Shown in pieces: positions 37,538-55,476 of a stretch of DNA of 64,000 nt. A program made the translations under genes and the position numbers. Each line of letters starts with the position of its first letter. Within the stretch, counting starts at the first letter, position 1. The DNA comes from Streptomyces sp. BA2 (lineage in GTDB: Bacteria > Actinomycetota > Actinomycetes > Streptomycetales > Streptomycetaceae). The notes below the pieces were generated by a model that saw nothing but the letters and a program-made list of their open reading frames with translations, did no database searches and was not told the origin of the DNA. The DNA lies in the NCBI RefSeq assembly GCF_009769735.1, contig NZ_WSRO01000001.1:186001-250000 (forward strand). The letters are read 5' to 3'.

Positions 37538-39901
37538 ATGCCTGAGCGTGCAGAGTTTGTCCCGACAAACCCGACCAGTGCTGGGCCACCGGCCGAAGCC
37601 GCGGCCAGCGCGACGGGGGTCGCCTGGATGGATTTGAACTATCCGGTGGGCTTGCTGGCGTTACGGCGTCTGGGGCTCGCCTACGCCCCCGGCGACGGCG
37701 GCCCGGGCGAAGTGTGGATATGGGTGGATGCCTCCCTGGCGACGACCGCTCTCGAGATAGACGTCACCGGGCTGGGCATCGGGATCCCACTGGATGGCAA
37801 GTTCAAATGGAAGACCGTGGTCCAGGGGCTGGGGGTCGATTTCAGCGCGGGTCCGATTGAGATCGGTGGAGGGCTGGTATTCGAGGACAATGCTGACTAC
37901 GACCCGCTGGTGGAGGGCGGAGTGATCGTCCGTGCCCCGCAGCTCAGCCTGCAGGCCATGGGGGCCTACGCACGGGCCAAGAAGGAGCCGGAGTTCACCT
38001 CGTTCTTCGTGTTTGTCCGGGCCAGCGCGTCCGACGGCGGGGGCGAGGAGACCATGCCTGCGGCGGGGATCCCGCTCATTCCCGGTGTCATCGCCCTGAC
38101 CGGTTTCTGTTTCGGGTTCGGTTTCAACAGCCAGCTGAGAGTGCCTGGGCCGGACGAGGTGATGACTTTCCCGCTGCTGGTCGGCCTCACCCCGCAGACC
38201 GGTGGCAAGGGGGCGACGGGGCCGCTGGCGGCCCTGGATTCGCTCACCAGCGGGCCGGCGAACTGGGTGACGCCGCAGGACGGCGCGTATTGGGGAGCAG
38301 CCGGTCTCCAGGCGGTCCTCTGCGACATCATTTCCTGCTGGGCTCTTCTCGTGCTGTCCTTCAAGGATGAGGTGACCGGTGCGCTCCTCGGTCTGGTGGA
38401 TATGCAGGCGGAGAAGGTGGCGAGGATCCAGGCCGACGTGGAGGCCGAGATCACCGGAGAGCGGATTGCCATCGGCGCCTCGCTCACTGATCAGTCCTAC
38501 TTCATCATCAAGGACGCCAACGTCACTGGCGCGATCGATCTGTATGTGTTCATCGGCGGGGATCACCGGGGTGAATTCGTCCTCACCGCCGGCGGATACC
38601 AGTCGGGCTTCGATGCGCCCGACTACTGGCCGCAAGTGCACAAAAGGATCGGCCTCGACTGGAGCATCAACAGCTGGCTGAGTGCGAGCGCGCAGTACTA
38701 CTGGATGGTCTCTTCACACGGGATGATGGTCGGCGGCGCCATGTCGTTCGACGTGGCCAAGAGCATCCCCGGCGGAAGCATCCACGGGTGGCTCAGTCTC
38801 ACCTTCGATGTGACCGTGCAGTGGCGCCCCTTCTACATGCACTTCCAGGGGAGCTTGACTGTCGGTCTGCGGGTGACGATGTTGTTGGTGTCGGCTTCCG
38901 TGGAGCTGGGGCTGTCGCTGGAGGGGTGGTTGCCGCCGGTGGGCGGCCGGGTCGAAATCGATCTGCCGTTCGGCATCACGATCGGTGTCGGCTTCGGTTC
39001 GCAACTCGAAAGCGGCCTGAAACAGCTGACCTGGGATGAGTTCGCGGAGCAGAAACTCCCCGACGCCGCCCACCGCATACAGATCACCGCCGAAAGCGGA
39101 CTCCTCGCCGTCCCGGGCACCCCACCCGACCCCAACGGCAAAACACCCGTCCCCTGGATCGTCTCCACCCACGGCTTCGTCTTCTCCACCCGCTGCGTGG
39201 TCCCCACCACCACCTTCCACATCAACCCCCCCACCAACTACCCCCTGCCCCTCAACGACCCCCACCACGGCGAAGCACCCGACCCCAACCGGAAACTCAA
39301 CGTCCGCCCCATGGGCAAACCCAACGGAGCAGACCTGAAATCCACCCACACCGTGACCATCGCCCACGGAAAAACCGGAGTCCTCGTCGCACTCGACGAC
39401 AAGGACTGGAAAGTCAACCTGGTCACCGAAGGCCTCCCCCAGGCCCTGTGGGGCACACCCCTCGACAACCTGGACACCACACCCCCCACCAGCGGAACCG
39501 GCCTCATCGACGACCAATACACCGGCATCCGCGTCAGCATCCCCGACGCCCAACTCGGCCCCTCCCTGCCCACCATCCACGCCACCGACCTCCAACTCGA
39601 AGACGTCGAACCCGACAGCGACCTCCCCCTCAACCCCACCAACACCACCCCACCCAACACCCCACCCACCCAAAACAACCAAGCCATCAACACCATCACC
39701 ACCACCATCACCACCACCCAAACCACAACCGCCCGCACCAACCTCGACACCGCCCTCACCAACTGCCAAATCGCCCACACCAACACCACCCCCCAAACCA
39801 CCAACGACTACAGCCCCCACACAAACGACCCCCTCACCCACTACACCACCCGCCTCAACAACGGCCTCTACAACACCAACCCCCTCCTCCTCACCACCTA
39901 A
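37538..39901 (+). CDS. DUF6603-type large beta-rich protein, copy 1
   Basis: A 787-residue protein matching, from memory, the uncharacterised DUF6603 family. Residues 60-480 are rich in alternating hydrophobic/aromatic beta strands with landmarks GLGVDFSAGPIEIGGGL, FGFGFNSQLRVPGPDE, LYVFIGGDHRGEFVLTAGGY, SAQYYWMVSSHGMMVGG and VTVQWRPFYMHF. These repeated amphipathic strands could form a barrel or elongated sheet. Residues from about 690 on are Thr/Asn/Pro-rich low complexity. No signal peptide. Codon 42 (37661) is TTA, so translation likely needs bldA. The last 922 bases of the gene plus 17 more are identical to copy 2. First gene of the large operon. Confidence 0.85.
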   Translation: MPERAEFVPTNPTSAGPPAEAAASATGVAWMDLNYPVGLLALRRLGLAYAPGDGGPGEVWIWVDASLATTALEIDVTGLGIGIPLDGKFKWKTVVQGLGVDFSAGPIEIGGGLVFEDNADYDPLVEGGVIVRAPQLSLQAMGAYARAKKEPEFTSFFVFVRASASDGGGEETMPAAGIPLIPGVIALTGFCFGFGFNSQLRVPGPDEVMTFPLLVGLTPQTGGKGATGPLAALDSLTSGPANWVTPQDGAYWGAAGLQAVLCDIISCWALLVLSFKDEVTGALLGLVDMQAEKVARIQADVEAEITGERIAIGASLTDQSYFIIKDANVTGAIDLYVFIGGDHRGEFVLTAGGYQSGFDAPDYWPQVHKRIGLDWSINSWLSASAQYYWMVSSHGMMVGGAMSFDVAKSIPGGSIHGWLSLTFDVTVQWRPFYMHFQGSLTVGLRVTMLLVSASVELGLSLEGWLPPVGGRVEIDLPFGITIGVGFGSQLESGLKQLTWDEFAEQKLPDAAHRIQITAESGLLAVPGTPPDPNGKTPVPWIVSTHGFVFSTRCVVPTTTFHINPPTNYPLPLNDPHHGEAPDPNRKLNVRPMGKPNGADLKSTHTVTIAHGKTGVLVALDDKDWKVNLVTEGLPQALWGTPLDNLDTTPPTSGTGLIDDQYTGIRVSIPDAQLGPSLPTIHATDLQLEDVEPDSDLPLNPTNTTPPNTPPTQNNQAINTITTTITTTQTTTARTNLDTALTNCQIAHTNTTPQTTNDYSPHTNDPLTHYTTRLNNGLYNTNPLLLTT

Positions 39902-40511: not shown

Positions 40512-43472
40512 ATGGCCGGATACCGCCCACAGGGCACGGCATCCCGCGATGCAGCAGATCCCACTGTCGGTGATCTGCTGGAGCAGTATCAAATCGACCA
40601 CGGCCAGATGCCTGCGGCCTCGCTGACCCCGGTGTTGACCCGCGTCGCTGTGGTCGGTGACCCCGCGAAGCCGGATGCGGTGTATGGGGAGTCGAGCGAC
40701 GGCCTGTGCCGCCTGGTGATCGGCGGAGTGCAGGTAGGAAAAAATCCTGTTTACGCGTTGATGTCGACCCGCGATATCGGCTACAAACTCTCGCACCTGC
40801 CGCTGGTGGGTGGCGGCGTGGACGCGGATTCGGATATCTCTGTGCAGCATACGGGGACGGGGGTGGCGACAGGCTCACTGGATGCGAGCCAGGTGAGAAC
40901 CATCAACTCCAATATTCTCGCTGCATACGGCTCGCTGGATCCGCCGCCTTCTTCGAAGAGTGGCCCGCCGCTCTTTCCTGAGGACAATCTCGCGGAGAGC
41001 TCAGGCTTTGCCGAGCTGGGATTTACCCCTCCCAAGCTGGGAAGCCCCCCTCCCTTCAGTGAGCACGGGAGCGGATTCGACAGTTGCGTATTCCTGCCCT
41101 TGTCGCAGAAGTCGAAGCCGGTATGGGTGAACGTGTACGAAGCGCTTGGGCACATCTATGTCCGCCGCATGGGGATCACGTTGGTCGATGTGGGCACGGA
41201 GGGTGATTTCGAACTTCTCTTGTGGGTGGACGGTTCGTTGGGGACGGCGTGTACCGCCTCGGCCGACCAGAAAGAGCGGAACGGGCTCACCATCGAGATC
41301 GTGGGCCTGAGTGTCGGCTTCACCACCGTGACGGCGGAATACGGGTGGGAGCAGATCAGGGCCTACCCGCCACAGGGGCTGGGTGTTGATTTCAGGTCGG
41401 GTGCGATGGAGATCGGCGGTGGGCTGATCTACGAGAATAACGCCGACTATGACCCGCTCGTGGAAGGCGCAGTTCTTGTCACCGTTCCCCAGATCAGCAT
41501 CCTGGCGGAGGGGGCCTATGCACACGCGAAAGAGAGTTCCGGCAATCCGTCGTTCAGCTCGTTCTTTGTGTTTGTCCGGGTGCAGAAGCCGCAGGGCGCA
41601 CAGCAGATGCCGCCGGCTCCGGCGGCGGGCCTGATTCCTCTGATCCCCGGTGTCATCACCTTGAGCGGCTTCTGCCTGGGGTTCGGTTTCAACAGCCAGC
41701 TGAGGGTGCCGGGACCGGCCGAGGTGACGCGGTTCCCGCTGCTGCTCGGTCTCACCCCGCAGGTCCAGGGCAAGGTCCCGCAGGGCGCGCTGGGGGCGCT
41801 GGAAATGCTCACCGAGGAGCCGACGAAGTGGGTGACGCCGCAGGACAGCGCGTACTGGCTGGCCGTCGGCGTCCAGACGGTCCTCGTCGACTTCATCACC
41901 TGCTCGGCGCTGCTTGTCCTGTCCTTCAAGAACGGGCTGAGCGGTGCCCTCATCGGCACCCTGGACATGTCGGTGGCGAAGATAGCGAAGTTCCAGGCTG
42001 CCGTTGAGGCAGAGGCCTCGGGGGAGCTGGTGGCCATCGGCGCCTCACTCACCGACGATTCATTCTTCATCACCGAGAAGGCCAAGATCAGAGGCGCGCT
42101 CGATCTGTATGTGTTCATCGGCGGGGACCACCGGGGTGAATTCGTCCTCACCGCCGGCGGCTACCGGGTCGGCTTCCAGCCACCCAAATACTGGCCGCAG
42201 GTTCGCGACAATGAAAGGATCGGGCTCGAGTGGAAGATTTCCAGCTGGCTGAGCGCGAACGCGCAATTCTACTGGATGGTCTCTTCACACGGAATGATGA
42301 TCGGCGGCGACTACTCGTTCGACGTCTCCAAGGACATCCCCGGCGGAAGCATCAAGGGGTGGCTCAGCCTCGCCTTCGACGTGACCGTGCAGTGGCGTCC
42401 CTTCTTCCTTCTCTTCTCCGCGGGTCTCAGTGTCGGTCTGCGGGTGAAGATGCTGCTGGTCACCGTATCGGTGGAGCTGGGCGTGGCACTGGACGGGTGG
42501 CTGCCGCCGGTGGGCGGCCGGGTCGAAATCAAGCTGCCGTTTAGTGTCAGGATCGGTGTCGGCTTCGGTTCGCAACTCGAAAGCGGCCTGAAACAGCTGA
42601 CCTGGGATGAGTTCGCGGAGCAGAAACTCCCCGACGCCGCCCACCGCATACAGATCACCGCCGAAAGCGGACTCCTCGCCGTCCCGGGCACCCCACCCGA
42701 CCCCAACGGCAAAACACCCGTCCCCTGGATCGTCTCCACCCACGGCTTCGTCTTCTCCACCCGCTGCGTGGTCCCCACCACCACCTTCCACATCAACCCC
42801 CCCACCAACTACCCCCTGCCCCTCAACGACCCCCACCACGGCGAAGCACCCGACCCCAACCGGAAACTCAACGTCCGCCCCATGGGCAAACCCAACGGAG
42901 CAGACCTGAAATCCACCCACACCGTGACCATCGCCCACGGAAAAACCGGAGTCCTCGTCGCACTCGACGACAAGGACTGGAAAGTCAACCTGGTCACCGA
43001 AGGCCTCCCCCAGGCCCTGTGGGGCACACCCCTCGACAACCTGGACACCACACCCCCCACCAGCGGAACCGGCCTCATCGACGACCAATACACCGGCATC
43101 CGCGTCAGCATCCCCGACGCCCAACTCGGCCCCTCCCTGCCCACCATCCACGCCACCGACCTCCAACTCGAAGACGTCGAACCCGACAGCGACCTCCCCC
43201 TCAACCCCACCAACACCACCCCACCCAACACCCCACCCACCCAAAACAACCAAGCCATCAACACCATCACCACCACCATCACCACCACCCAAACCACAAC
43301 CGCCCGCACCAACCTCGACACCGCCCTCACCAACTGCCAAATCGCCCACACCAACACCACCCCCCAAACCACCAACGACTACAGCCCCCACACAAACGAC
43401 CCCCTCACCCACTACACCACCCGCCTCAACAACGGCCTCTACAACACCAACCCCCTCCTCCTCACCACCTAA
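40512..43472 (+). CDS. DUF6603-type large beta-rich protein, copy 2
   Basis: A 986-residue paralogue of the 37538 product with an extra N-terminal region of about 200 residues (DLLEQYQIDHGQ, then a VGGGVDADSD segment) before the shared beta-rich part. The shared part is clearly divergent from copy 1 (GLGVDFRSGAMEIGGGL, FGFGFNSQLRVPGPAE, SAQFYWMVSSHG-type strands) until residue 680, after which the two proteins are identical to the end because of the 939-bp repeat. ATG 40512 has GGAGGT 5 nt upstream; longer upstream frames are unsupported. No signal peptide. Function unknown; presumably interchangeable with copy 1 in one assembly. Confidence 0.85.
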   Translation: MAGYRPQGTASRDAADPTVGDLLEQYQIDHGQMPAASLTPVLTRVAVVGDPAKPDAVYGESSDGLCRLVIGGVQVGKNPVYALMSTRDIGYKLSHLPLVGGGVDADSDISVQHTGTGVATGSLDASQVRTINSNILAAYGSLDPPPSSKSGPPLFPEDNLAESSGFAELGFTPPKLGSPPPFSEHGSGFDSCVFLPLSQKSKPVWVNVYEALGHIYVRRMGITLVDVGTEGDFELLLWVDGSLGTACTASADQKERNGLTIEIVGLSVGFTTVTAEYGWEQIRAYPPQGLGVDFRSGAMEIGGGLIYENNADYDPLVEGAVLVTVPQISILAEGAYAHAKESSGNPSFSSFFVFVRVQKPQGAQQMPPAPAAGLIPLIPGVITLSGFCLGFGFNSQLRVPGPAEVTRFPLLLGLTPQVQGKVPQGALGALEMLTEEPTKWVTPQDSAYWLAVGVQTVLVDFITCSALLVLSFKNGLSGALIGTLDMSVAKIAKFQAAVEAEASGELVAIGASLTDDSFFITEKAKIRGALDLYVFIGGDHRGEFVLTAGGYRVGFQPPKYWPQVRDNERIGLEWKISSWLSANAQFYWMVSSHGMMIGGDYSFDVSKDIPGGSIKGWLSLAFDVTVQWRPFFLLFSAGLSVGLRVKMLLVTVSVELGVALDGWLPPVGGRVEIKLPFSVRIGVGFGSQLESGLKQLTWDEFAEQKLPDAAHRIQITAESGLLAVPGTPPDPNGKTPVPWIVSTHGFVFSTRCVVPTTTFHINPPTNYPLPLNDPHHGEAPDPNRKLNVRPMGKPNGADLKSTHTVTIAHGKTGVLVALDDKDWKVNLVTEGLPQALWGTPLDNLDTTPPTSGTGLIDDQYTGIRVSIPDAQLGPSLPTIHATDLQLEDVEPDSDLPLNPTNTTPPNTPPTQNNQAINTITTTITTTQTTTARTNLDTALTNCQIAHTNTTPQTTNDYSPHTNDPLTHYTTRLNNGLYNTNPLLLTT

Positions 43473-43489: not shown

Positions 43490-43502
43490 AGGAGAACCCA
43501 CC

Positions 43503-45860
43503 ATGCCCTCCAAAGAGAGCCCTCCTCCTTCCACGCGCGTCCTCACGTTCTCCGATTCCAAGGTTCCGGCCCTCACGGGGGGCAAGTACACCATCACCAT
43601 CGACCAGGAGGTCGCCGACAGCTCGGGGGTAGTTCTCAGCAACACGGATCAATTCCCCACGGCCACCCAGAAGTTCGAGGTCCACGCCCCGCGGTTCGCC
43701 TTAGACCCCAGCTTCATTCATGCCGAGCACCCGCCGAACGGATCAGTGGGCAACTTCGACAACCGTCTGGCCCATGTGAGCCTGACCCGGACAACCCTGC
43801 CCTGGGAACAGGAGCTGGAAGAAGGCCTCACCGGTGAGCGCATGCCGTGGATGGCGCTGCTCCTTTTCGCGGAAGGTGAGCTGCCAAATGACCCTCACTC
43901 GGAAGGAACCGTCAACACGAGTTTCACGGTCCAGGAGCTGCTCGATCTGCAGAACAAGCATGTGGGGGATAAGGACTACAACGTACTCGGCCCGGAGATC
44001 GAACCAGACACCGTTGTCGATCAAGTTCTGGCGGGGGTCTGCAGCACGATCGACGTGCCCGCGGCCGTGTTCACCGCTGTGGTCCCCTACGGGGAGCAGC
44101 TGACGCACCTGGCGCATGTGCGTGATGTGGGTGATGAGCCGTCATTCTTCAGGGCGTCGAACCTGGACATGACCGACCCCGGCACGTACAGCATTGTGAT
44201 GACCAACCGGTTCCCCCGCACCTCCGGGAACTACGCGGCTCATCTGGTCTCGCTGGAAGGCTTCCTCGAACAACTGACCAGCTATGGGCTGCCCAAGGGC
44301 AAGGACACGGTGAGGTTGGTGTCCCTGCGTTCCTGGTCGTTTACCTCCCACCCGGACCCGGGCGGGCACTTCGCCGATGTGGTCAAGAATCTGGCGGCCC
44401 CGGGCACCGATGCGGACCACGCGCACGCCGCCGGCCAGCCTTCGCCCGAGGCCGCGCTGTCGTTGCGGCTGCCGCCGCCCATCAACGATGAATCGCAGGA
44501 AGCAATTGAGGTAAAGAACCGTCTAACGTGGGGGTATGTGCCCCTGTCCTATGTGACAGCCGAGGGTGAGCGCACGCTCAGCTGGTACCGGGGGCCGCTG
44601 ACCCCCGTCCCGCCGTCGACCGTCCCCGGACTGCAGCTGCCCAGCGACACGCAGCAGGACAACGGGGTAGACACCAAGTCGTCTGACGACCTGCTGGTCT
44701 ACCTGCCCGACTGGGGCGTGTTCGACCTGTCCTATGCGGCGGCATGGACCATGGGCCGTCTGGTGGCGCTTTCCCACGCACCGGCGGGTTCCGCGGTATC
44801 ACAAATGCAGCAGCAGGCTCGCGCCGCCGCGCTTCGGGTGCTGTCCCGCCTGAGCACTTCTCCGGAGATCAGCGGCCTGGAGAGCGGGGTGAGCCCCACG
44901 CTCGAGGAGCTGACCGGGAACTGGCCCGCGCTGCGCCGCTTCCACCAGCTGGTGGGAGATGGTCTGGCGCAGCGTCTGGAACGGATCCCGGCGGCCGACG
45001 CGGCGCGACCGGCCGGGACGGCGTCTGTGCCGGCGTCCGTGCCGGCGAACACGGCCGGGTCCAGGGCGGAGTGGCTGCGCACTGCGCTGCAGCGCGAGGA
45101 GGTGCGCACGGTACTGGCCGAGGCCCTGACGGACGAAGCCGGGCAGGTGGCGGACATCATCGAAGCGCTCTACACCCTGGAGCTGGTCTCCTTCGACCAC
45201 CTGGTCGCCGACCCCCGGATGCTGCCCCCGGAGAGCGTGCGCTTCTTCCACGTGGACTCCACCTGGATCGCCGCACTGGTCAAGGGACTTGCGAGCGCCG
45301 GCGTGAGCACCACGCTGGACCAGGCCCTCCAGGAGACCGTGACCGCGGCCGTGACCGCCCACCTGGACTCGCGCCAGCCGCCGCCGCAGGCCGGACTGCT
45401 GCTGCGGTCCCGGCTGGCCAAGGACTGGCCGGGCCTAATCATCGAAGCATCCCAGGGCGGAAACCCGGTGACGATCGTGCGCCGGGACTACCTCGGGCCG
45501 GACCTGCTGCTGTGCCTCTTCGACCAGGTGCCCGACATCGTCACGCTCGGCCAGCCCCACCAGGATCTGTACTTCGGCGCCGAGGGCGATGACTACGTCA
45601 TCGACCTGCGCTATCTGAAGGGCGACCACCCGGGCGCCCCGATCACCGGGGCCTCGTTCTCACTCAAGAACCTTTTCCGGTCGCCGGCGCCGCCGGGTGC
45701 CGCTCAGCCTGAGGTCTTGCAGCTTTCCCAGGTGGTGAACCTCCTGACCACATCACTCAGAAATCAGCAACAGCTGGATACGGGCGAGCAGGTATCGCCG
45801 GCGGGATTTGCTGTCCAGATGATCCAGTCCCCCCACCGGCAGATCTTCCGTCAACCGTAA
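43503..45860 (+). CDS. Large operon protein, 785 residues, unknown family
   Basis: Begins with an Ig-like/beta region (TGGKYTITIDQEV, FEVHAPRFALDPSFIHAEHPP, HVSLTRTTLPWEQELE, PWMALLLFAEGEL), then a VVPYGEQLTHLAHVRD and NRFPRTSGNYAAHLVSLEGFL core. The C-terminal half is helical, with RFHQLVGDGL and LYTLELVSFDHLVADPRMLP, and a final beta part (GPDLLLCLFDQVPDIV). I do not recognise an experimentally described family. No signal peptide or TM helix. ATG 14 nt after the repeat, with AGGAG. Codon 67 (43701) is TTA. 32 nt before the next gene. Confidence 0.85.
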   Translation: MPSKESPPPSTRVLTFSDSKVPALTGGKYTITIDQEVADSSGVVLSNTDQFPTATQKFEVHAPRFALDPSFIHAEHPPNGSVGNFDNRLAHVSLTRTTLPWEQELEEGLTGERMPWMALLLFAEGELPNDPHSEGTVNTSFTVQELLDLQNKHVGDKDYNVLGPEIEPDTVVDQVLAGVCSTIDVPAAVFTAVVPYGEQLTHLAHVRDVGDEPSFFRASNLDMTDPGTYSIVMTNRFPRTSGNYAAHLVSLEGFLEQLTSYGLPKGKDTVRLVSLRSWSFTSHPDPGGHFADVVKNLAAPGTDADHAHAAGQPSPEAALSLRLPPPINDESQEAIEVKNRLTWGYVPLSYVTAEGERTLSWYRGPLTPVPPSTVPGLQLPSDTQQDNGVDTKSSDDLLVYLPDWGVFDLSYAAAWTMGRLVALSHAPAGSAVSQMQQQARAAALRVLSRLSTSPEISGLESGVSPTLEELTGNWPALRRFHQLVGDGLAQRLERIPAADAARPAGTASVPASVPANTAGSRAEWLRTALQREEVRTVLAEALTDEAGQVADIIEALYTLELVSFDHLVADPRMLPPESVRFFHVDSTWIAALVKGLASAGVSTTLDQALQETVTAAVTAHLDSRQPPPQAGLLLRSRLAKDWPGLIIEASQGGNPVTIVRRDYLGPDLLLCLFDQVPDIVTLGQPHQDLYFGAEGDDYVIDLRYLKGDHPGAPITGASFSLKNLFRSPAPPGAAQPEVLQLSQVVNLLTTSLRNQQQLDTGEQVSPAGFAVQMIQSPHRQIFRQP

Positions 45861-45892
45861 CCATTGCGGAATAGAGAATCCTGGAGCTAGCT

Positions 45893-48800
45893 GTGACCAA
45901 TCCACTGATCGTTCCCGTTGAGATCGAGGTCTACCTCGTCAACTCCCAGATGCAGAGCGAGGAGGACCCTGACCCGTACGGGCGCTGGGAACTCGACTTC
46001 TCGGATCCCAAGGAAATCTCCAACCCCCCTGAGCCGTATCCGTTCACTGGAAGGCAGGACATCGCTCCACAGACCGGGGCGCAGGTGCACTGGCTGGTGC
46101 CCGATGCTTTTCGCACCCAGAGCGATACGGACGGAAAATTCCCGCCGGTCCCCAACCGCTGGATGGTCGTCCGTTCCAGCCGGCCGTCCGGCCAACCGGA
46201 GGCGACCCCGACCTTCAAGGCATGGGTGGTTGAGAGCGATTACCTCGCCGAGTACCAGCAGGACCCCTACGACTACCCGTGGAACGGAAACTACGCTGCC
46301 TGGGCCCACCAGGTCACGGAAACGGACCACTATCCGGGATACGACCCAGGCGACTACATGCCGATGACGATCGGACGGGTATGGGAGTTGCAGGAGTGGG
46401 ACTACAGCCGCACCGAGGGTAATCCTCTCTTCCTCACGGCGGTAGGGCCGGGAATTATGGCATTCTGCGGCTACCAGCCCTACAACCAGGGCGTCTTCTC
46501 TTTCTACGACAACCTGCACGACATCGACCCCGCGCAAGCGACACTCGATTACCTGGTGTGCGGCTGGTTCTCGCCGGAGAGCGGGGACATCCTCGCCGGC
46601 TCGGGTGGCGTTGCCGCGCTGATGGAGGAGCTCGACTGGACGACCAGCGGGACCCCGGACGCGATGTCCCTGTATGCCGGAGCGGCCCTGCGGCTGGAGT
46701 GGGACGACACGGCCAATGCCCCGGCTCTCACCGGGAACAGGCCCGACAGCCTGGCTCAGGTCTTTTTGGCGGTGGGGCACAACGCGGCCGACGCGGCGAC
46801 CGCGCCCGGCCTGCACAAGACGAACGATGTGGCGGCCGGACGCCTGTTCCAGGCCTTTTTAACCGGCAAATTCGAGCAGCTCGATCAGAACCCCGAAGGG
46901 TTCGACGACACCCTCCACAGCACGTGGTTCACCCCGAACAACACCGATCACACCTGGCAGATCACAGACCCGCCCTCCGGGCTGTCGGAGCCGTTGACGG
47001 ACGCCGAGCTGGTGAAGGAACGCAACTGGCTGGCCGACCTCAACGCCAAACAGGCGAGCTACAACCAGCTGGCCCGGTACGCCTCCGGGCTGCGGTTCCG
47101 CCTCTATGAGCTGTGGCGGCTGAGCATCACACCCTTGGAAGACAACTTCGACAACCCCGGCGGCCGCCCGGAGTCCTTCCAACCCACGCCCATGATGGAC
47201 GAGCTGGCCGCAAGTCTGCGGGCAGTGCTGGCCGAGATGACCGGACTCATTCAGGACCAGGTGGTCAACGGAGTGTCGGGCATTCCCGGCCTGCCGCACG
47301 GAGACACCGAGCAGGCGTTCGCCGACAGCATCGCCAAGTACGCTGGGGCCTGGGGCCTGGACCCGGACGGCACGGATCCGAAAAAGGTGCACCGGGTGCT
47401 GAAGTCTGTTCCGCTGCCGGCGTTCCAGACGCCCAACGACCCGGTGGTCCTGCTCGGCGGGCTCTGGAAGGACCCCGCGAAAAAGCCGCAGCCGGACAAG
47501 GGCCCGCTGTTCTGCCGCACCCGCGATCAGCTAGTGGCCAGCATGCTCATCAAAACCACGATGCAAACCGGCCCGCTGGCTGGCCCGCCCCAGGGCTGGG
47601 ACCGCCTGCCGCCGCAGGTGCAAGACACCTTCACCGGCCTGTTCGCCGAATTCACGCTGCTCTCCGCTGCCGCCGCCACCGGCACCGCGGACAGCAACGA
47701 CCTCATCAACGACGTGAACAGCCTGGACCCCGACACTCATGTCTCCCGCTCCTTCCTCAACTCGGCGGGGAACCCGGCCGGCCCCGGGCACTTCACCGCC
47801 ATCAGGCCCATCTGGGACCAGGCCTGGTCACCGGTCTACCTGCTGTGGCGGATGCAGTACTACCCGGTGCCTCTGGAGGGCGACAAGGACTACCAGTGGG
47901 TCTTCAACCCCCAAAGCGGCCGGTATGAGCTCACCAAGACCTCCACGGGCAAGCCGACGGTGGCGCCCCTGCATCTCAGCGGCCGCTGCGCCCTGACCGA
48001 CGTGCCCCGGGTTCTCGTCGGGGGCGGCGCCGACCGGCACATCCGCACCTTCCCTGACGCGCCCCACCAGGGCTTTGAGGAGCTGGTCGGCAAGGCCGAC
48101 GAGTTCGGGCAGATCTCCCAGACGGTGGAAGGCCTGCACCGCTCGCTGCTCCAGCGCCTGTCCGGCATCGGCATCATCCCCAATGCCGGTGCTCCATATA
48201 GCGACTTGCTCACCGACTATCCGCACGACGGCTTCCCCGCGCCCGCCCCCGACTACGCCATGGGCTCGAAGGGTCCCACGCTGCGGTTCACTCCGGCCGG
48301 AGGAGCACAGTTCGTCTTCACCTTCGCCGGAATCGTCGACTCCATGGGACGTCACCTGACGCTCATCGACGCCTGGGGCGAGGCGGATTCCAACACCTTC
48401 CCGGAGATGCACCCCCCCTACCGCGCCCCCAGCGTCACCCCCAACCTGGTCGCCCCCAACACCTACCTCACCTTCGGCGACACCACCAACCCCGACCCGG
48501 ATGACATCCACGTCGATGACCAGGACTGCTATCTGCAGCTGACACCCCGCATCCTCCAGCCGACCCGGCTGCGGTTCGACTTCGTGTCCACCAACGACCC
48601 CTACGCCGACGGCGAGCTGGTCGCCCCGACGGTCGTGGATGATCCGCCCGAGGTCGCCACGCACGACCACCCCGAGACCACCCCGGTGGTCGGCTGGCTG
48701 CTGGCCAATCACCTCACCGGCTCCCTGCTCATCCACGACCAGCACGGGCGCGGCATCGTCGAAGCCCGCAAGGGCATCGGCATCAGCAACGGAAGCGAAG

Positions 48801-49987
48801 TGCCCGCCGTGGACTGGGCCACCCTGCCCTACTACACCGACCCGGACGACGACACCGCCTACAACGACGATCCTTTCGATGCACAGAGCGACTTCGCCAC
48901 CCAGTGCCCCGAACTCTTCCACTTCATCACCGGCCTGCGCAGCAACGGGCCCGATGCTTTCGACGCCCTCATGGCTCGCATCGATGCTCCGACCACCGCC
49001 GCCCAGCCGCCCGCCACCGCCGGCACCATGATGGCCCCGCTGATCGGCCAGCCCGTCGCCCTGATCCGCGCCCGGCTCACCCTGGAGACCGACACCCTCC
49101 CCTACACCGACCCCACCTGGGACAAGGCCCTGGACTTCACCACCCCCGACTATCTAACCCAGCAATGGAAATGGAACATCCGGCTGGGCGGCCCGCCGCG
49201 CGACGACAACGGCGTCACGAAGACCACCGACGGGCTCATCGGCTACTACACCCACAAGACGGGGGCCGACGGCCGCATCGACCCCACCCAGCCGACCGAC
49301 TACAACGTCTTTCGCACCCCGGTCGGCGCGGCGAGCGGCTACGCCCAGCAGATCGATGCCCACGACCTGGCCCTGCCGGTCAACCCCGCCCCCGCCCCCA
49401 AATCCGAAGTCCTCGACGCCGACGCGGCCTTCGACCCGACGAATCCGTATACCGCCTTCGTCACGCTGGTGGCCCACCCCTGGTCGGACATCAACGCGAT
49501 CAGTGACGTTCTGCCCGCGGCCACCTTGCGCCTGCCCGACGAGGACGTCCGCACGCCCCTGTCCCACCTGCGGATCGCCTCGCGCACCGGTCCTCTGCTG
49601 GCCGGCACCCGCCCCGTTCCCACGGGGGAGACCGGCACCGGCGACGACCAGGTCACCGCCGTGGTCATGCCCTGCCCGTCGGCCTGGAAGGGCATCTGGG
49701 ACTGGTCCCAGCCACAACCCCCCCACGAAACCGCCTACCAGAGCGCCTCCGCAGCCCAGGACGCGCAGGCCGCCGAGCCGTGGGACCACTACCCCATCAC
49801 CCCCACCGACAACGCCGCGCATCTCGACCAGGCCCCGCCCCCGGCCCGCACCGGCTACCTCACCCTGACCACCGCCGTCGGCCAGACACCGCCTCCGGAG
49901 AAGGTCCGGCGGGCCGGCGACAACGCCGACCAGTCCCCTGCCCATTCCCCCGACCCCGCCTCAAACCGCACGGAGCCGCAACCATGA
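45893..49987 (+). CDS. Giant operon protein, 1364 residues, unknown family
   Basis: Largest product in the window. The N-terminal 200 residues are Tyr/Trp/Pro-rich (VEIEVYLVNSQ, PFTGRQDIAPQTGAQVHWLVP). A region around 205-230 contains LDYLVCGWFSPESGD. The middle is helical (ELWRLSITPLEDNF, ASMLIKTTMQTGPLAGPP), followed by QAWSPVYLLWRMQYYPVPLEGDKDYQW. The C-terminal third is beta-rich (TPVVGWLLANHLTGSLLIHD, ALIRARLTLETDTLPY) with a Pro/Ala tail. No signal peptide or TM helix. GTG start with GGAG 6 nt upstream. Codon 323 (46859) is TTA. Its stop overlaps the next ATG (ATGA). No known enzyme motif seen; a scaffold role is a guess. Confidence 0.85.
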   Translation: MTNPLIVPVEIEVYLVNSQMQSEEDPDPYGRWELDFSDPKEISNPPEPYPFTGRQDIAPQTGAQVHWLVPDAFRTQSDTDGKFPPVPNRWMVVRSSRPSGQPEATPTFKAWVVESDYLAEYQQDPYDYPWNGNYAAWAHQVTETDHYPGYDPGDYMPMTIGRVWELQEWDYSRTEGNPLFLTAVGPGIMAFCGYQPYNQGVFSFYDNLHDIDPAQATLDYLVCGWFSPESGDILAGSGGVAALMEELDWTTSGTPDAMSLYAGAALRLEWDDTANAPALTGNRPDSLAQVFLAVGHNAADAATAPGLHKTNDVAAGRLFQAFLTGKFEQLDQNPEGFDDTLHSTWFTPNNTDHTWQITDPPSGLSEPLTDAELVKERNWLADLNAKQASYNQLARYASGLRFRLYELWRLSITPLEDNFDNPGGRPESFQPTPMMDELAASLRAVLAEMTGLIQDQVVNGVSGIPGLPHGDTEQAFADSIAKYAGAWGLDPDGTDPKKVHRVLKSVPLPAFQTPNDPVVLLGGLWKDPAKKPQPDKGPLFCRTRDQLVASMLIKTTMQTGPLAGPPQGWDRLPPQVQDTFTGLFAEFTLLSAAAATGTADSNDLINDVNSLDPDTHVSRSFLNSAGNPAGPGHFTAIRPIWDQAWSPVYLLWRMQYYPVPLEGDKDYQWVFNPQSGRYELTKTSTGKPTVAPLHLSGRCALTDVPRVLVGGGADRHIRTFPDAPHQGFEELVGKADEFGQISQTVEGLHRSLLQRLSGIGIIPNAGAPYSDLLTDYPHDGFPAPAPDYAMGSKGPTLRFTPAGGAQFVFTFAGIVDSMGRHLTLIDAWGEADSNTFPEMHPPYRAPSVTPNLVAPNTYLTFGDTTNPDPDDIHVDDQDCYLQLTPRILQPTRLRFDFVSTNDPYADGELVAPTVVDDPPEVATHDHPETTPVVGWLLANHLTGSLLIHDQHGRGIVEARKGIGISNGSEVPAVDWATLPYYTDPDDDTAYNDDPFDAQSDFATQCPELFHFITGLRSNGPDAFDALMARIDAPTTAAQPPATAGTMMAPLIGQPVALIRARLTLETDTLPYTDPTWDKALDFTTPDYLTQQWKWNIRLGGPPRDDNGVTKTTDGLIGYYTHKTGADGRIDPTQPTDYNVFRTPVGAASGYAQQIDAHDLALPVNPAPAPKSEVLDADAAFDPTNPYTAFVTLVAHPWSDINAISDVLPAATLRLPDEDVRTPLSHLRIASRTGPLLAGTRPVPTGETGTGDDQVTAVVMPCPSAWKGIWDWSQPQPPHETAYQSASAAQDAQAAEPWDHYPITPTDNAAHLDQAPPPARTGYLTLTTAVGQTPPPEKVRRAGDNADQSPAHSPDPASNRTEPQP

Positions 49988-51936
49988 CCACCCGCACCGT
50001 CACCAACGCCAGCGGACTGCGCTACACCCTGCGCAGCACCCCCACCTTCCTCGACACCGAACAAGTCGCCACGCTCACGCTCACCGCCACCAACGACAGC
50101 GACCAGCCCATCGACTGCCCCAGCATCAGTCTCGGTTTCCCCCTCACACCCCAGGGCCCCGACACCACCGTCCTGACAACCAGCCCCGAGACCATCCACG
50201 CCGCCGTCAGCCAGGGCTTCACGCTGACCGCCGGTTCCGGCGCCTACACCCTGACACCATCCACCACCCTCGCCCGGCTGGCCCCCGGCGACCATTTCAC
50301 CCTCACCCTGGACAACATTCAGCCGCCGACGGCCCCCGGCGTCGCTCCTCTGCATCTGACCGAGGGCTCCGACCCTGCCGCCCAGATTTCCTACCCCCTC
50401 CCCGTGGTGTTCTGGCCGGGCGGCGACCAGGGAATTTTCGAGGGCTTCCGCGCCGACGACGCACCCGTCCAACGGGGTAATTCGACCACCCTGCACTGGC
50501 GCTGCGCCGCAAACCCGAAAATCCATTACACCCTGTACTACAACACGGGCAGCACGGCAGGAGACCTCCCCCCGGTAACGGACAGCGAATTACGCAATCC
50601 GGCAAACTATACCGCCGAACAGGACTCGAACATCCTGGACTTCTCCTACACAACCGAGCCTCTCTACAGCATCGCCATCGGATACCACCTCCAGGCCACC
50701 TGGCAGGAAGAGGCCAGGTACCAGACCACCGCGAGCTTCGTCATCGGCGGAGACCTCGACACCGGCGACATCAACGTCAAGGGAAATGCCGGGATCCTTC
50801 ACCCCGTCGGCCAGACCGCTCTCACGGCAGGCACCGTCTACACCGCACCCACGGACGGATTCCTCTTTGGCTCCGTCACGGCGAACAACAACAACGTCCA
50901 AAGTACCCTCACGGCCCAGATTGCGCCCCGCGGCGCCCTCCAGTCGGCCGTTCACGCCATCACATCCGAATCAGCCAGCGACGAGGATAACCACAACTTC
51001 ACCATCCCCGTCAGCAAATGCAGCACGCTTCAATTCACCGTCCCCTACGACGCCGACTGCTACCGGCTGATCTGGCAGCCCCTCGGCGACGGTGACCTCG
51101 TCGAAGGCACCGGGACGGACTGCCTGTCATGGAGAAACCCGCACTCCGCCGCCTCCGCCCCGCCCCCCAGCCCCGCGGGCCGCAGCGGGACAGCGGACGG
51201 CGGCCGACGCCATCGGCCCGCGAAGGACTCCGGCTGGCCGACCGGGGACAAGGGCGTGTTCGAGGACTTCCATCCCGATGACCTCCCGGTCAGCGCAGGC
51301 GCCACGACCAACCTGCACTGGCACTGCTCCCAGAACACAGACATCGAATACGACCTCTACTACAACACCACCGACCCGCAACAGGGGGTCGTGCAGGTGC
51401 ACGTAGCTGACGCGGACCTGCGGAACCCCAGCAACAGCTACTTCACCCCTGACCCGGCCGACGCCGAACTCTGGTATTTCACGGTCCCCACCCAGCCGCT
51501 GAACGGCCTCACCATCGGCTACCACCTCCAGGCCACCCACACGCCCAGCGGGGAAATCAAGAGCCAGACCACCGCAAGCGTCATCACCGACGGAGACCTC
51601 ACCGCCGGCAACCTGACCGCCAGCGGGCACGCCGGCATCCTCCACACCAGCTCCGACACCTTCGACATCGGCACCGCCTACACCGCTCTCAGCGACGGAT
51701 TCATCTTCGCCGCACTCAACCAGGACTGCAGCGGCAACCTCCAGGCCCAGATCACTTCAGGATCAACGGTTTCCACCGCGACCCTCACCGGCCAGTCCGG
51801 ATCAACGCAGGACAACAACAAGAATTTCACTTTCCCCGTCCGCAAATCCAGCACGGTTGAATTCACGGTGCTCCCCAATGACCCTTCCGACTACATGCTG
51901 ACCTGGCTGCCCCTGGGCACCGGGAAACTCGCCTAA
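49984..51936 (+). CDS. Operon protein with two tandem beta modules, 650 residues
   Basis: An N-terminal Ig-like domain (residues 1-140, LTLTATNDSDQPIDCPSISLG) is followed by two copies of a module of about 230 residues. Each copy runs FWPGGDQGIFEGF..DD or GWPTGDKGVFEDF..DD, then LHWRC or LHWHC, YYN, an IGYHLQAT strand, GNAGILH or GHAGILH, TDGFLF or SDGFIF, and a closing Y.L.W.PLG.G. This spacing suggests repeated beta-sandwich plus tip domains as in fibre proteins. ATG overlaps the previous stop; codon 203 (50590) is TTA. A frame open upstream of 49984 is not used. No signal peptide. Confidence 0.83.
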   Translation: MTTRTVTNASGLRYTLRSTPTFLDTEQVATLTLTATNDSDQPIDCPSISLGFPLTPQGPDTTVLTTSPETIHAAVSQGFTLTAGSGAYTLTPSTTLARLAPGDHFTLTLDNIQPPTAPGVAPLHLTEGSDPAAQISYPLPVVFWPGGDQGIFEGFRADDAPVQRGNSTTLHWRCAANPKIHYTLYYNTGSTAGDLPPVTDSELRNPANYTAEQDSNILDFSYTTEPLYSIAIGYHLQATWQEEARYQTTASFVIGGDLDTGDINVKGNAGILHPVGQTALTAGTVYTAPTDGFLFGSVTANNNNVQSTLTAQIAPRGALQSAVHAITSESASDEDNHNFTIPVSKCSTLQFTVPYDADCYRLIWQPLGDGDLVEGTGTDCLSWRNPHSAASAPPPSPAGRSGTADGGRRHRPAKDSGWPTGDKGVFEDFHPDDLPVSAGATTNLHWHCSQNTDIEYDLYYNTTDPQQGVVQVHVADADLRNPSNSYFTPDPADAELWYFTVPTQPLNGLTIGYHLQATHTPSGEIKSQTTASVITDGDLTAGNLTASGHAGILHTSSDTFDIGTAYTALSDGFIFAALNQDCSGNLQAQITSGSTVSTATLTGQSGSTQDNNKNFTFPVRKSSTVEFTVLPNDPSDYMLTWLPLGTGKLA

Positions 51937-51957
51937 CACCACGGAGGAACGCCCATC

Positions 51958-53202
51958 ATGACCGACTACCCAGATGTCCTGCTCAGCTACGACTACAGCA
52001 CCGACCCCGATATGGCGACGGTCGGCAGCATCGTCAACCTGATGTGCACCGTTGAAAATAAGCAGGACGTCGCAGTCAGCTGCGCATACATCAGTATCGA
52101 CCTTAATCCGGGTGATGGACCCGAAAGCCTAGCCACCGAGGACGCCCTCGGAAACGCCACGCCCCAGAAGCCCACTGGCATCAATGCAAGCTTCACCAGA
52201 AAACTAGTATCGGGCCCTGGCGACGGCACGAGTACGAAATACTATTTCATGCTCACCCCACCGGGGTCCAAGTACTTCACTTTCAAACCCGGCGACAAAT
52301 TCGAGTTCTCGCTCCAGATCAACAAAATTCTGGTCAACAATGCGCTCGGCGCAGACGGCACGCTGACGACGGCGAAGTGCAGGACCATCGAGAAAAGCTC
52401 TTTGAGCGGCAACCCCGTCACCAACATTACGGGGTTCACCGTCCCTAAATACCCCACAGGCACTGCTTTCCGCAACTTCACGACCTCCCCTGCGGACCAA
52501 GTGGTCGTTAAACGAGGAGATCCTCTCAGACTCCAATGGACGGCCAAGCCCCCCTTCTCGAAAAAGACAAAACACCCCTCCCCCCCCTACTACACCATGA
52601 CAATTTACTACGACCAGGTCGATAAGCCCGTGGATGTCACGGACAACAACAGCGACAACGGCGGAGGATCCTTCACCGGCCAGGGAGGCGAGCTCCTCAC
52701 CCTCTCCCACACCACCCCCTTCACCCTCTACCTCACGCTCTGCGACAAAAACGGCCAGCAGATCACCCACAGCCTGACCACACTCGCCGTGGTCTCCCCC
52801 ACCGACGTCACCCTCACCGACCTGGACCTCAACGAGACCGCGAGCATCCTGACCATCGCCAATCCCGTGACCCAGGCAGATACGGCCATCGCCAGCACCG
52901 ACGGGTTCCTGCTGTGCACCGTCCAAGGCTCCGCCAACAGCGAGCCCTCCGAAGTGGTCATCAGCCTCACGCCCCCCGAAGGGGGGGACGCCGTCCCTTA
53001 CGTCATCACCACCGATGAGGGATCCCAACCGGACGACGGCTACACCTTCGTCGGCCCCCGAATCCTTCTCCCCGTCGCAAAAGGAACCACGGTCAATCTC
53101 ATCCAAACGCAATCCGCCGGCACTTACCGAGCCATGTGGTACCCCCTCGGCACCGGCCCTCTCCTCGGCCCCCTTCCCCCCCAACCCGCACCCTCCGCAT
53201 AA
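51958..53202 (+). CDS. Operon protein with one diverged beta module, 414 residues
   Basis: Same plan as the preceding protein but with one module: an Ig-like N-terminus (VNLMCTVENKQDVAVSCAYISIDL), a basic central part (KPPFSKKTKHPSPPYYTMTIYYDQ) aligning with the LHW...YYN segment, and the tip domain STDGFLLCTVQG ... YRAMWYPLGTG. The tail is Pro-rich. GGAGG 9 nt before the ATG and 21 nt after the previous stop, so co-transcribed. Function unknown; likely a paralogous subunit. Confidence 0.83.
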   Translation: MTDYPDVLLSYDYSTDPDMATVGSIVNLMCTVENKQDVAVSCAYISIDLNPGDGPESLATEDALGNATPQKPTGINASFTRKLVSGPGDGTSTKYYFMLTPPGSKYFTFKPGDKFEFSLQINKILVNNALGADGTLTTAKCRTIEKSSLSGNPVTNITGFTVPKYPTGTAFRNFTTSPADQVVVKRGDPLRLQWTAKPPFSKKTKHPSPPYYTMTIYYDQVDKPVDVTDNNSDNGGGSFTGQGGELLTLSHTTPFTLYLTLCDKNGQQITHSLTTLAVVSPTDVTLTDLDLNETASILTIANPVTQADTAIASTDGFLLCTVQGSANSEPSEVVISLTPPEGGDAVPYVITTDEGSQPDDGYTFVGPRILLPVAKGTTVNLIQTQSAGTYRAMWYPLGTGPLLGPLPPQPAPSA

Positions 53203-53203
53203 C

Positions 53204-53238
53204 CCGCTGCCCACACCCAGCCCAGACCCGGGCAGCGG
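53204..53238 (+). terminator. Hairpin after the 414-residue protein gene
   Basis: CCGCTGCCC pairs with GGGCAGCGG (9 bp, loop 17 nt) directly after the stop. The following 370 nt to 53607 hold no convincing gene, so the glycine-rich gene may be partly separately transcribed. Confidence 0.45.
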
Positions 53239-53607
53239 ACGAGGCAACTTCATGACAGAAGAATCTGCCTGCGCTCAGCTCCCCACGGCGATCAGCAAGC
53301 CATCTCGTAGCAGTCGAGACGCTCACGGTTACAGGAAATCCCGCCGACACAGCACCACAACCTGGAGATCAACCCACTGCTGGCCCAACCACTGCCACAC
53401 CTGCGAAGACAGGATGCACGTCGGCACCGCCTGCTGGTCAGGGTGGGCAGAGGCGAGGGCCAACAGCGCGGGACAGACCCATAGCCAGAACAACGAATTT
53501 CAGAGACATCAGCGCAGGCAGAACTGCGCCAGTTGTCTGTGTGCGCCCCGATACGCCATGGCGCGGGACGCCCTCGCCCCTCCCCCTGTCCGGAAGGAAG
53601 CACCACC

Positions 53608-55476
53608 ATGACAACTACCTACAATGCGGCGTTCTCAGCGCCGGCAGTGCAAACCCCCTTTGACGGCCATAGCCACCGCGCACCGAGCCTGTACTGCCTC
53701 AACACCGCAGCAAACACCTATGACCGCTACGAATGGTCCGGCACCAAACGCCCCTGGTTCGGCGACACACCCGACGGTCAGGGAAACCTCGTAGGGACCG
53801 CAGCAGACCCCGGCCTGTTCGGCCACTGGGACATCCCCTGGGACACCGTCGACGGCACCCTCTGCGTAGACACCAAACACATCTACCTGTTCAACGGCAC
53901 CACCTGCATCTACTACACCCTCGAAGCAACAGGCTCCTACACCGACCACACACCACAAACAGACGACGTCATCGACCCCATACCCATCTCCCAAGTATTC
54001 GGAGCCACCTACACATCGGACAGCACAACCAAGCCCCCCACACAATCCACGGTCTTCCCCCTCCCCAAAGTCGACGCCGCCTTCCTCACCGCCAACAAGA
54101 AGATCTGGTTCTTCGGCGGCAACCAGTGCTACCTCATCGACGCCACCACCCACACCCCCGAGGACGACTTCAAAGACAACAACGGAAAACCCACAGCCCT
54201 CAACATCAACGCCACAACCAACGCACAAGGAAACCCCTGGACCGGCTGGACCGGCCTCCCCAACGACCTCAACAACGGCATCACCTGGGCCGCCCCCACC
54301 CTCAACAGCGACGGCACCGTCAAAGACAAGGCACACCTCGTCACCGGCACCGAATGGGCCCCTGCCGTCCCCAGCACCAAAACCGCCTGTGTGCAGACCT
54401 ACACCACCCCCGGCGGCCCCGATCCCACGTTCACCGTCCCCGCCGGCGTCAAACAAATCACCGTCGAACTCTGGGGACCCGGAGGAGGCGCCGGCGACAG
54501 TATCAACGGCGCCGCCCACGCCACCGGTGGTGCCGGAGGTGCCGGCGCCTATCTCCGCGATACTTTTAGCGTCGACCCAGGGAACAGCCTCAGCTTCCAT
54601 GTGGGTGGTGCGCCAGGTGACACTCAGAGCACTTACTACCCCAGCGGCGACGTGAAGCTCGTCGCAGGCGCCGGTGGGGGCGGCGGCGGGGCCGGGGCCC
54701 AGGGCATCCCCGGGGGTGACGGCGGCGGCGGCTCCGGCCTCGCAGGCACCACCACCGAGGGCTACCCCGGCGGCCCCGGCGGTGGCGGTATCGCCGGCGG
54801 CAAGGGTGGCCAGGGCGGCCAGGCCACCGTTCTTGGGAACTTGTGCGCCAGGGGTGGTGATGGTGCCGACACAGGCCCCGCCGGAAATCCGGGCGGTAAC
54901 GGCCAAGACGCCCTTCAGCATGGAGTGGGCCCCTACGGCGGAGGTGGCGGAGCCGGCGGAAGCAACGGAAGCGCCGGCGCCGGCGGAAGTGCCGGCGTCG
55001 GTACCGTCCCCGGGGTCGTGGCCCAGGCCGGGACCAGCGGTCACGGCAGCGGTGGAGGCTACGGCGGCGGAGGCGGCGGCGGGATCGGTGCCAAGACCGA
55101 AGGCGGCGGAGGCGGCGGAGGCGGCGGAGCCGGAGGCGGCGGCGGCGGCGCGGGCGGTCGCTGCGCAGGGAATACGCCCGGTCCCGGCGGAGGCGGAGGC
55201 GGAGGCGGCGGCGGCGGGATCGGCGCCGGAGGCTACGGTGCTGGCGGCGGCGGCGGCGGTGCCGGCGCTTCGTTGGGCTTCGGCTTTGGCGGTGGCGGGG
55301 GCGCCCAAGGCCCGAGCCTGACGCAGGCCAGCACCCACTTCAACGCAGGCAACGGCCCGACGCCCGCCGGCTATTCGCCCGGCGGCGCCGGCACCGGAGG
55401 CAGCCCTGACAGCAGTGGCCCGGGCAACCCCGGCGCGAACGGCGCCGTCAGGATCACCTGGACCCCAGGCGAGTAG
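53608..55476 (+). CDS. Hemopexin-like N-terminus plus polyglycine C-terminal domain, 622 residues
   Basis: Residues 20-235 contain hemopexin-like blades (APSLYCLNTAANTYDRYEW, KHIYLFNGTTCIYYTL, KIWFFGGNQCYLID). Residues 265-330 are a beta domain (TFTVPAGVKQITVELWGPGGGAG). Residues 330-600 are over half glycine in runs of GGG and GGGG with Ala/Ser, and the end reads GANGAVRITW, the closing strand typical of glycine-rich domains in phage tail adhesins. Polyglycine-II sandwich folding is plausible. No signal peptide. GGAAGGA precedes ATG 53608. Last gene of the operon and a good candidate for its surface- or target-binding component. Confidence 0.85.
   Translation: MTTTYNAAFSAPAVQTPFDGHSHRAPSLYCLNTAANTYDRYEWSGTKRPWFGDTPDGQGNLVGTAADPGLFGHWDIPWDTVDGTLCVDTKHIYLFNGTTCIYYTLEATGSYTDHTPQTDDVIDPIPISQVFGATYTSDSTTKPPTQSTVFPLPKVDAAFLTANKKIWFFGGNQCYLIDATTHTPEDDFKDNNGKPTALNINATTNAQGNPWTGWTGLPNDLNNGITWAAPTLNSDGTVKDKAHLVTGTEWAPAVPSTKTACVQTYTTPGGPDPTFTVPAGVKQITVELWGPGGGAGDSINGAAHATGGAGGAGAYLRDTFSVDPGNSLSFHVGGAPGDTQSTYYPSGDVKLVAGAGGGGGGAGAQGIPGGDGGGGSGLAGTTTEGYPGGPGGGGIAGGKGGQGGQATVLGNLCARGGDGADTGPAGNPGGNGQDALQHGVGPYGGGGGAGGSNGSAGAGGSAGVGTVPGVVAQAGTSGHGSGGGYGGGGGGGIGAKTEGGGGGGGGGAGGGGGGAGGRCAGNTPGPGGGGGGGGGGGIGAGGYGAGGGGGGAGASLGFGFGGGGGAQGPSLTQASTHFNAGNGPTPAGYSPGGAGTGGSPDSSGPGNPGANGAVRITWTPGE

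Follow-up and report, generated by a model that had tools for sequence, protein, structure and literature searches.

A conserved DUF6603 gene system in Streptomyces and other bacteria: a candidate non-contractile particle with exchangeable fibre tips

Described protein particles and the DUF6603 genes of Streptomyces sp. BA2

The closest described counterparts of the genes considered here, seven consecutive plus-strand genes (products P1 to P7) in a 64,000-nucleotide stretch of Streptomyces sp. BA2 (contig NZ_WSRO01000001.1, positions 186,001 to 250,000; 'the window' below), are the extracellular contractile injection systems (eCIS), the umbrella particles of Streptomyces and the tail fibres of phages. 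Umbrella particles are described as built on a large polymorphic toxin that contains repeats and has spokes tipped with lectins (PMC11062931); hemopexin has been named as an eCIS-associated domain (PMC8213781). P1 and P2 belong to the Pfam family DUF6603 (PF20248), for which the Pfam description viewed gives no function; P3 and P4 stand outside Pfam altogether, and a literature search, with most subscription literature and preprints beyond its reach, found no paper naming DUF6603, PF20248 or IPR046538.

A preliminary description of these genes, made from the DNA letters alone, had proposed a self-assembling particle, fibre or surface coat. Judged from gene order across genomes, DUF6603, P3, P4 and the related pair P5/P6 almost certainly constitute one conserved gene system. 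A tentative reading, which we consider possible if still somewhat short of probable, is that the system specifies a non-contractile particle that would be built in the cytoplasm, bind cells through its fibre tips and carry enzymes as cargo; it is this reading that is weighed below against its alternatives.

A gene set in constant order

P3 served as the only anchor of the search and, being unannotated, brought with it no annotation that could bias the result. In a set of one genome per species there were 270 confirmed P3 loci, and the best 80 matches gave 79 distinct loci; six plasmid records bring the total to 85 P3 loci, in which L086 and L007, lacking DUF6603, were retained. L079 and L080 lie at opposite ends of a single chromosome, and near-identical relatives were kept (for example, L040 and L041, or L076, L084 and L089). 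Genes were called by a simple longest-frame method rather than by a trained gene finder, and six-frame translations of the loci were searched with profiles for the core families (DUF6603, P3, P4 and P5/P6), for hemopexin and for three enzyme families.

Directly upstream of P3, and on the same strand, a DUF6603 gene was found in 78 of the 79 genome loci, and P4 lay directly downstream on the same strand in just as many, the single miss in each case being a contig end. A P5/P6 relative followed P4 in 70 of the 79 (eight of the nine misses were contig ends, and L064 alone has P4 followed by something else), and the six plasmid records had DUF6603 in five, P4 in all and P5/P6 in four. Co-occurrence elsewhere, which the preliminary description had offered as a check on its proposal, is thus what the genomes display. 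The pairwise identities of DUF6603, P3 and P4 are also correlated (r 0.91–0.96 over 80 loci), although shared descent, which was uncontrolled, could give part of this.

Going by record titles, the P3 loci come from Actinomycetota, Paenibacillus, Marinomonas and Chitinophaga, and from metagenome-assembled genomes (MAGs) of Emcibacter, of Acidobacteriaceae, of Chloroflexota and of a member of Bacteroidota. With Paenibacillus in Bacillota, Marinomonas and the Emcibacter MAG in Pseudomonadota, and Chitinophaga in Bacteroidota, the system spans six phyla, the others being Actinomycetota, Acidobacteriota and Chloroflexota.

A more distant class is represented by three further DUF6603 loci, in genomes of the same phylum as that of the window. 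The gene after DUF6603 there encodes a protein of 926–1084 aa that is a remote relative of P3 (profile E values of 9e-8, 4e-5 and 0.044; profile-profile probability 92%), and the third gene specifies a protein of 1563–1936 aa in which similarity to P4 was sought and none detected. Directly upstream of DUF6603 there is a gene for an M64 peptidase at one of the three loci (77 bits, over the cut-off), a gene whose PhoD match is weak at another (23.6 bits, where the cut-off is 27) and a WD40/hemopexin-like gene at the third. DUF6603 was present in four of 198 genomes of the phylum, including that of the window; a separate protein search listed at least five DUF6603 proteins, two of them from the window, but its candidates were limited by length and shared words, so that it says little about breadth.

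In the window itself, frames re-derived from the sequence gave the seven genes at the lengths first reported (Table 1). The short gaps, ATGA overlap and good ribosome sites described between 40512 and 53202 were likewise borne out on measurement: P2 and P3 are separated by 30 nt, P3 and P4 by 32 nt and P5 and P6 by 21 nt, P4 and P5 overlap by 4 nt in an ATGA, and GGAG-like sites precede the starts of P2 to P6. These five genes are packed like a single operon. P1 and P7 belong less surely to the same transcript, because the gaps to their neighbours are looser (610 nt from P1 to P2; 405 nt from P6 to P7). Pfam gave no match at E 0.1 for P3, P4 or P6, and no family over its curated cut-off for any of P3 to P7; the NCBIfam scan of all seven proteins was empty, and the absence of a known enzyme motif, noticed at the outset, agrees with the Pfam, PHROG, PADLOC and NCBIfam scans. 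P3 is single-copy in this genome, on a 602-kb contig (possibly a megaplasmid) separate from the large one.

Fibre proteins with exchangeable tips

The P5/P6 family was assembled as a set of 94 proteins, of which 65 were used for PHROG and domain scans. Its members have a common N-terminal half, Ig-like by eye, and C-terminal halves that differ; among those listed of the 94, inspection by eye reveals 'LTVxGxLxA' repeats, which recall fibre or beta-solenoid shafts, together with diverse tips. A boundary between the halves was found in 61 of the 94, and 56 proteins were used to examine their separate histories. N-halves were at least 55% identical in 102 pairs, and 31 of these pairs had no C-half match at 1e-3; conversely, C-halves were similar in 63 pairs, and in just three of them were the N-halves less than 40% identical or unaligned. 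Because of this asymmetry, the family is, as far as sequence comparison can tell, one that exchanges its C-terminal tips and keeps its N-halves.

An adhesin or fibre character is supported by what a few of the tips resemble. Three of the 65 have F5/8C discoidin domains, one a haemagglutinin repeat and one a FapA solenoid; a tail protein PHROG was matched by one (3e-18) and a tail fibre PHROG by one (8e-17), perhaps the same protein, and the family profile aligned weakly with a tail-fibre protein of known structure (E 0.0025). The likeness to phage tail fibres and adhesins (PHROG 863, 5795 and 8469) extends to P7, which in a 647-aa frame matches PHROG 863, described as tail fiber assembly, at 8.8e-12.

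P7 had been described as bearing both hemopexin blades and a polyglycine tip. The glycine-rich tail is real (glycine makes up 44% of the final 330 residues), and the hemopexin similarity is weak, at E 0.019 in Pfam, which is below the cut-off, and 2.5e-8 with a local hemopexin profile; by sequence, P7 has no solved relative. The accompanying proposal that this last protein is the adhesin finds some encouragement in the genes for polyglycine and hemopexin proteins, but receptor binding fits P5 and P6 at least equally well. Across the genome loci the hemopexin profile matches 26 of 79, and in 12 of 79 the domain is fused in frame behind DUF6603. In two Nocardia loci (L012 and L013) DUF6603 is immediately preceded by a P7-like polyglycine gene, and L079, like its chromosome-end copy L080, has another Gly-rich gene after the P5/P6 relative. 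The window also has a separate hemopexin-repeat gene, on the opposite strand and some 4 kb before the operon. A CBM96 domain occurs on P3 in four of 120 listed relatives, and it is because hemopexin, polyglycine and CBM96 are binding modules that an outward-facing role seems to us to be favoured.

DUF6603, P3 and P4 as candidate body proteins

P1 and P2 are about 75–76% identical as proteins, and their genes are identical over the last 922 nt and for a further 17 nt past the stop codon, the preceding parts having diverged, which suggests a recent gene conversion or duplication. Sequence comparison found no solved relative of DUF6603. In the AlphaFold model of P1 (predicted local distance difference test, pLDDT, 80.5; predicted template-modelling score, pTM, 0.65), residues 29–487 are arranged in about 24 long strands, some of which are separated by short helices. 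The repeated amphipathic strands that the preliminary description had seen in the DUF6603 pair are very evident here: the mean contrast between alternating hydrophobic and polar residues is 2.66, against 1.16 (sd 0.18) after permutation, and none of 2000 permutations reaches the observed value. The same test applied to the modelled strands of P3 gave 238 of 1000 permutations reaching it. Among solved structures, Foldseek places closest to the DUF6603 model a group of outer-membrane barrels, an S-layer complex and ApoB100, all with template-modelling (TM) scores to the model below 0.2 and large root-mean-square deviations (rmsd); the top match is the S-layer deinoxanthin-binding complex (E 3.9e-4) and the second ApoB100 (E 9e-4). 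On the model, then, DUF6603 could be an amphipathic sheet able to span or coat a lipid surface.

At six loci (L051, L058, L059, L066, L075 and L079) the N-terminal extension that long DUF6603 proteins carry has homologues that stand alone, next to M91-like proteins and beside the core operon.

The AlphaFold model of P3 is fairly confident (pLDDT 82.2, pTM 0.75) and has no significant fold match in the PDB or BFVD, a result that does not exclude a known fold; the first Foldseek match, to the S-layer protein SbsC, is weak (E 0.025). For P4, 15 relatives were listed, and a sequence search of the PDB gave a single match, at E 0.35.

Secretion signals were sought by a crude hydropathy test applied to the N-terminus at the farthest possible start. 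No signal-like N-terminus was found by it in 84 DUF6603, 83 P3, 60 P4 and 86 P5/P6-family proteins, so the lack of signals first noticed in the window holds for the core proteins of the relatives, as far as so crude a test can tell. With no recognisable secretion signals, the core proteins are probably put together in the cytoplasm and released through lysis or some unknown route; phage tails and eCIS likewise assemble in the cytoplasm.

The weak S-layer matches of both P3 and DUF6603, which were the first that Foldseek returned, would fit the alternative of an assembly on the cell surface or in the extracellular matrix, in which P3, P4 and DUF6603 would make up a coat or filament around the producing cell, hemopexin, CBM96 and discoidin domains would bind polysaccharides, and enzymes would remodel the surroundings. 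CBM96 on P3, the F5/8C tips and the hemopexin fusions are all in keeping with this. We nevertheless regard it as unlikely: the core lacks a signal-like N-terminus, exchange of tips on conserved N-halves is more like target-switching fibres than a self-coat, and the nuclease-like neighbours described in the next section would fit it poorly.

Enzyme genes upstream of DUF6603

Apart from the core, and with antisense artefacts and common families set aside, the larger clusters of proteins encoded at the loci include hemopexin, MBL-fold proteins, M91-like metallopeptidases and the endonuclease/exonuclease/phosphatase (EEP) family. The underlying Pfam tallies of neighbours come from 40 genes picked by eye, and hence not at random, from 92 upstream and 136 downstream candidates. 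At 16 of the 85 P3 loci a gene of an enzyme family ends between -41 and 139 nt from the DUF6603 gene. The adjoining enzyme is MBL in six loci (L009, L011, L022, L026, L050 and L083), EEP in six (L052, L074, L076, L082, L084 and L089), M91 in two (L029 and L033) and subtilase in two (L064 and L065). At L023 the gene that adjoins an M91 homologue, whose motif is not intact, is a separate N-module gene preceding DUF6603, and at L055 an MBL-like protein was recognised by eye only; for the upstream genes of L061 and L081 neither Pfam nor the PDB gave a relative. Similarity to ComEC was seen in one MBL protein (E 0.0017), and similarity to DNase gamma in one EEP protein (E 0.0018). Catalytic motifs are intact in six of six EEP, eight of nine M91 and six of nine MBL cluster members, and in all 14 adjacent proteins of these three families (HxxxDH in the six MBL, WNIE and SDHxP in the six EEP, and HExxH in the two M91).

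It is because nuclease- or protease-like genes adjoin DUF6603 at these 16 loci that we consider a plain structural coat less likely than an enzyme-carrying particle. Of the original proposal of a particle, fibre or coat, the fibre element is supported for the P5/P6 family, and assembly into a particle is our inference.

The same hydrolases could instead act inside the producer. DUF6603 would then bind lipid somewhat as ApoB does, in an intracellular complex concerned with immune conflict or with lipid handling. The second Foldseek match to ApoB100, the strongly amphipathic model strands and the want of secretion signals all accord with such a complex, and hydrolase families of the MBL, EEP, M91 and subtilase types resemble effectors of bacterial conflict systems. 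Yet no PADLOC family was found on the seven proteins, the NTPase family that recurs at the loci is an ABC-transporter cluster (5/91; identified in the window), and the fibre and adhesin modules point outward. We therefore hold an intracellular complex to be distinctly unlikely. A defence system in the usual sense was set aside as a candidate (no PADLOC family on the seven proteins at E 0.01; NCBIfam empty).

Relation to contractile systems, phages and umbrella particles

The preliminary description had noted the absence of sheath, tube and ATPase genes and concluded that this was no contractile injection system. For the operon itself this stands: neither Pfam nor PHROG matches any of P1 to P7 to a sheath, tube, baseplate or AAA protein, the nearest thing being the tail-adhesin-like PHROGs on P7. 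About 26 kb beyond the operon, on the same 602-kb contig, there is, however, an eCIS locus with Pfam matches for sheath, two tube genes, baseplate hub, PAAR, baseplate J and AAA. Its presence prompted the idea that the DUF6603 proteins are cargo or an accessory module, loaded on or displayed by the eCIS of the same genome. Like an eCIS, the system is a multi-gene locus with neighbouring toxin-like enzymes, and hemopexin is associated with both (PMC8213781 for eCIS); the sheath match in the eCIS locus is also the only one in the genome of the window. In a survey of 39 of the 79 loci, representing 37 P3-bearing genomes, many of them drafts, 24 genomes had a sheath match. The 13 that had none, most of them drafts, comprise three Paenibacillus, three Nocardia, three Streptomyces, a Nonomuraea, a Microtetraspora, a Bacteroidota and an Acidobacteriota MAG, and they weaken the idea. 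So do the chromosomes carrying L044 and L070, in which sheath genes lie megabases from those loci (and about 0.25 Mb from L079, the second operon in the L070 genome). An eCIS accessory seems to us very unlikely.

A phage origin was rejected as a candidate: neither 50,697 phage records nor the viral contigs scanned contained a P3 relative. Umbrella particles are similar in idea, as an actinobacterial protein particle with binding tips and a variable toxin (PMC11062931); the present system differs from them in its DUF6603/P3/P4 core, its spread over six phyla and its enzymes encoded as separate genes. No Pfam, NCBIfam or PADLOC match suggestive of an umbrella-type toxin was found on P1 to P7.

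Two plasmid neighbourhoods may be recorded here. On a Streptomyces plasmid (L006, 2–7 kb) the DUF6603 operon is preceded, at a distance of about 5 kb, by genes annotated as CATRA-associated and CHAT-domain, and on the Paenibacillus polymyxa plasmid p-YT9A (L008, 0.2–5 kb) genes for DUF4280, baseplate V and a GH-E nuclease are found about 8–12 kb upstream of that plasmid's own DUF6603 operon.

Table 1. Positions of the DUF6603 system and associated features (window coordinates unless stated)
Feature	Position	Strand	Evidence or remark
P1, DUF6603 protein, 787 aa	37538..39901	+	Pfam PF20248, 303.7 bits (cut-off 27); AlphaFold model
P2, second DUF6603 protein, 986 aa, N-terminal extension	40512..43472	+	PF20248, 255.9 bits (cut-off 27); GGAGG before ATG 40512
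Identical 922-nt block, copy 1, 3' end of P1	38980..39901	+	
Identical 922-nt block, copy 2, 3' end of P2	42551..43472	+	
P3, 785-aa core protein, anchor of the conserved system	43503..45860	+	At least 664 relatives; 270 loci; no fold match
P4, 1364-aa core protein, no known family	45893..49987	+	Right after P3 in 78/79 loci
P5, 650 aa, fibre family	49984..51936	+	ATG start; second half repeats part of unit; separate profile matches
P6, 414 aa, fibre family like P5	51958..53202	+	Family profile
P7, 622 aa, weak hemopexin-like repeats and polyglycine tail, candidate adhesin	53608..55476	+	ATG start; PHROG 863; local hemopexin profile; Gly content
Separate hemopexin-repeat protein, possible accessory	32475..33290	-	Pfam PF00045, 4.2e-12; local hemopexin profile match
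eCIS locus	L104 1635-18438, ~267.6-284.4 kb of 602-kb contig		Only sheath match in the window's genome

What the system may do

The layout that emerges is an optional, variable hydrolase gene followed by DUF6603, P3, P4, the P5/P6 fibres and further adhesins with hemopexin or polyglycine. In the particle that we tentatively prefer, the core and fibre proteins would assemble in the cytoplasm and depart through lysis or by an unknown route, P3 and P4 forming the body. P5/P6, with the hemopexin and polyglycine modules, would be fibres that bind receptors and gain a new target when their tips are exchanged; the amphipathic strand meander of DUF6603 would insert into, or coat, a lipid surface; and the hydrolase encoded beside it (DNase-like, ComEC-like nuclease, metallopeptidase or subtilase) would be the cargo delivered. 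Of these elements, the gene order, the exchange of tips, the want of signal-like N-termini, the amphipathic strands of the model and, at a minority of loci, the adjacent enzymes are observed; assembly, release, membrane action, targeting and delivery are inferred from them. The fullest form of this proposal, in which a P3/P4/DUF6603 body with exchangeable fibres has its DUF6603 open or coat the target membrane so that a nuclease or protease enters, as an undescribed, non-contractile delivery machine of at least six phyla, we consider doubtful.

A number of points weigh against the particle. For at least 60 of the 65 P5/P6-family proteins there is no PHROG match, a recognised domain is missing from most tips, and P5 and P6 of the window match nothing over the cut-off in Pfam or PHROG; in this, and in the lack of P3 relatives in phage records or viral contigs, the system differs from phage tails. 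The pTM of the DUF6603 model is 0.65, and the porin matches have an rmsd of about 14–20 Å among the rows listed, besides their low TM scores; alternation of strand residues is common in many soluble sheets too, and does not of itself prove membrane contact. In seven of 84 DUF6603 frames an in-frame ATG before the domain is followed by a hydrophobic stretch. As to cargo, 69 of the 85 P3 loci (67 if L023 and L055 are counted) have no adjacent enzyme of these families, and neither has the operon of the window. The families are common ones, and 16 of 85 is a raw count that includes relatives, such as four Paenibacillus EEP cases and the two M91 loci, both of one order. Several of the assignments, moreover, are sub-threshold in Pfam: EEP at L052 (17.4 vs 24.5), M91 at L029 (19.9 vs 25) and MBL at L009 (21.8 vs 22.7).

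Even should its function prove to be another, a set of genes kept in strict order at 78 of 79 loci, around a family that no paper found by us has named, makes the question a testable one. If the particle is real, it would be an extracellular machine of a new kind, present in six phyla and not based on a contractile tail; it would give a function to DUF6603 and to several hundred 'hypothetical proteins', and it would provide a natural case in which exchangeable targeting tips are joined with enzyme cargo.

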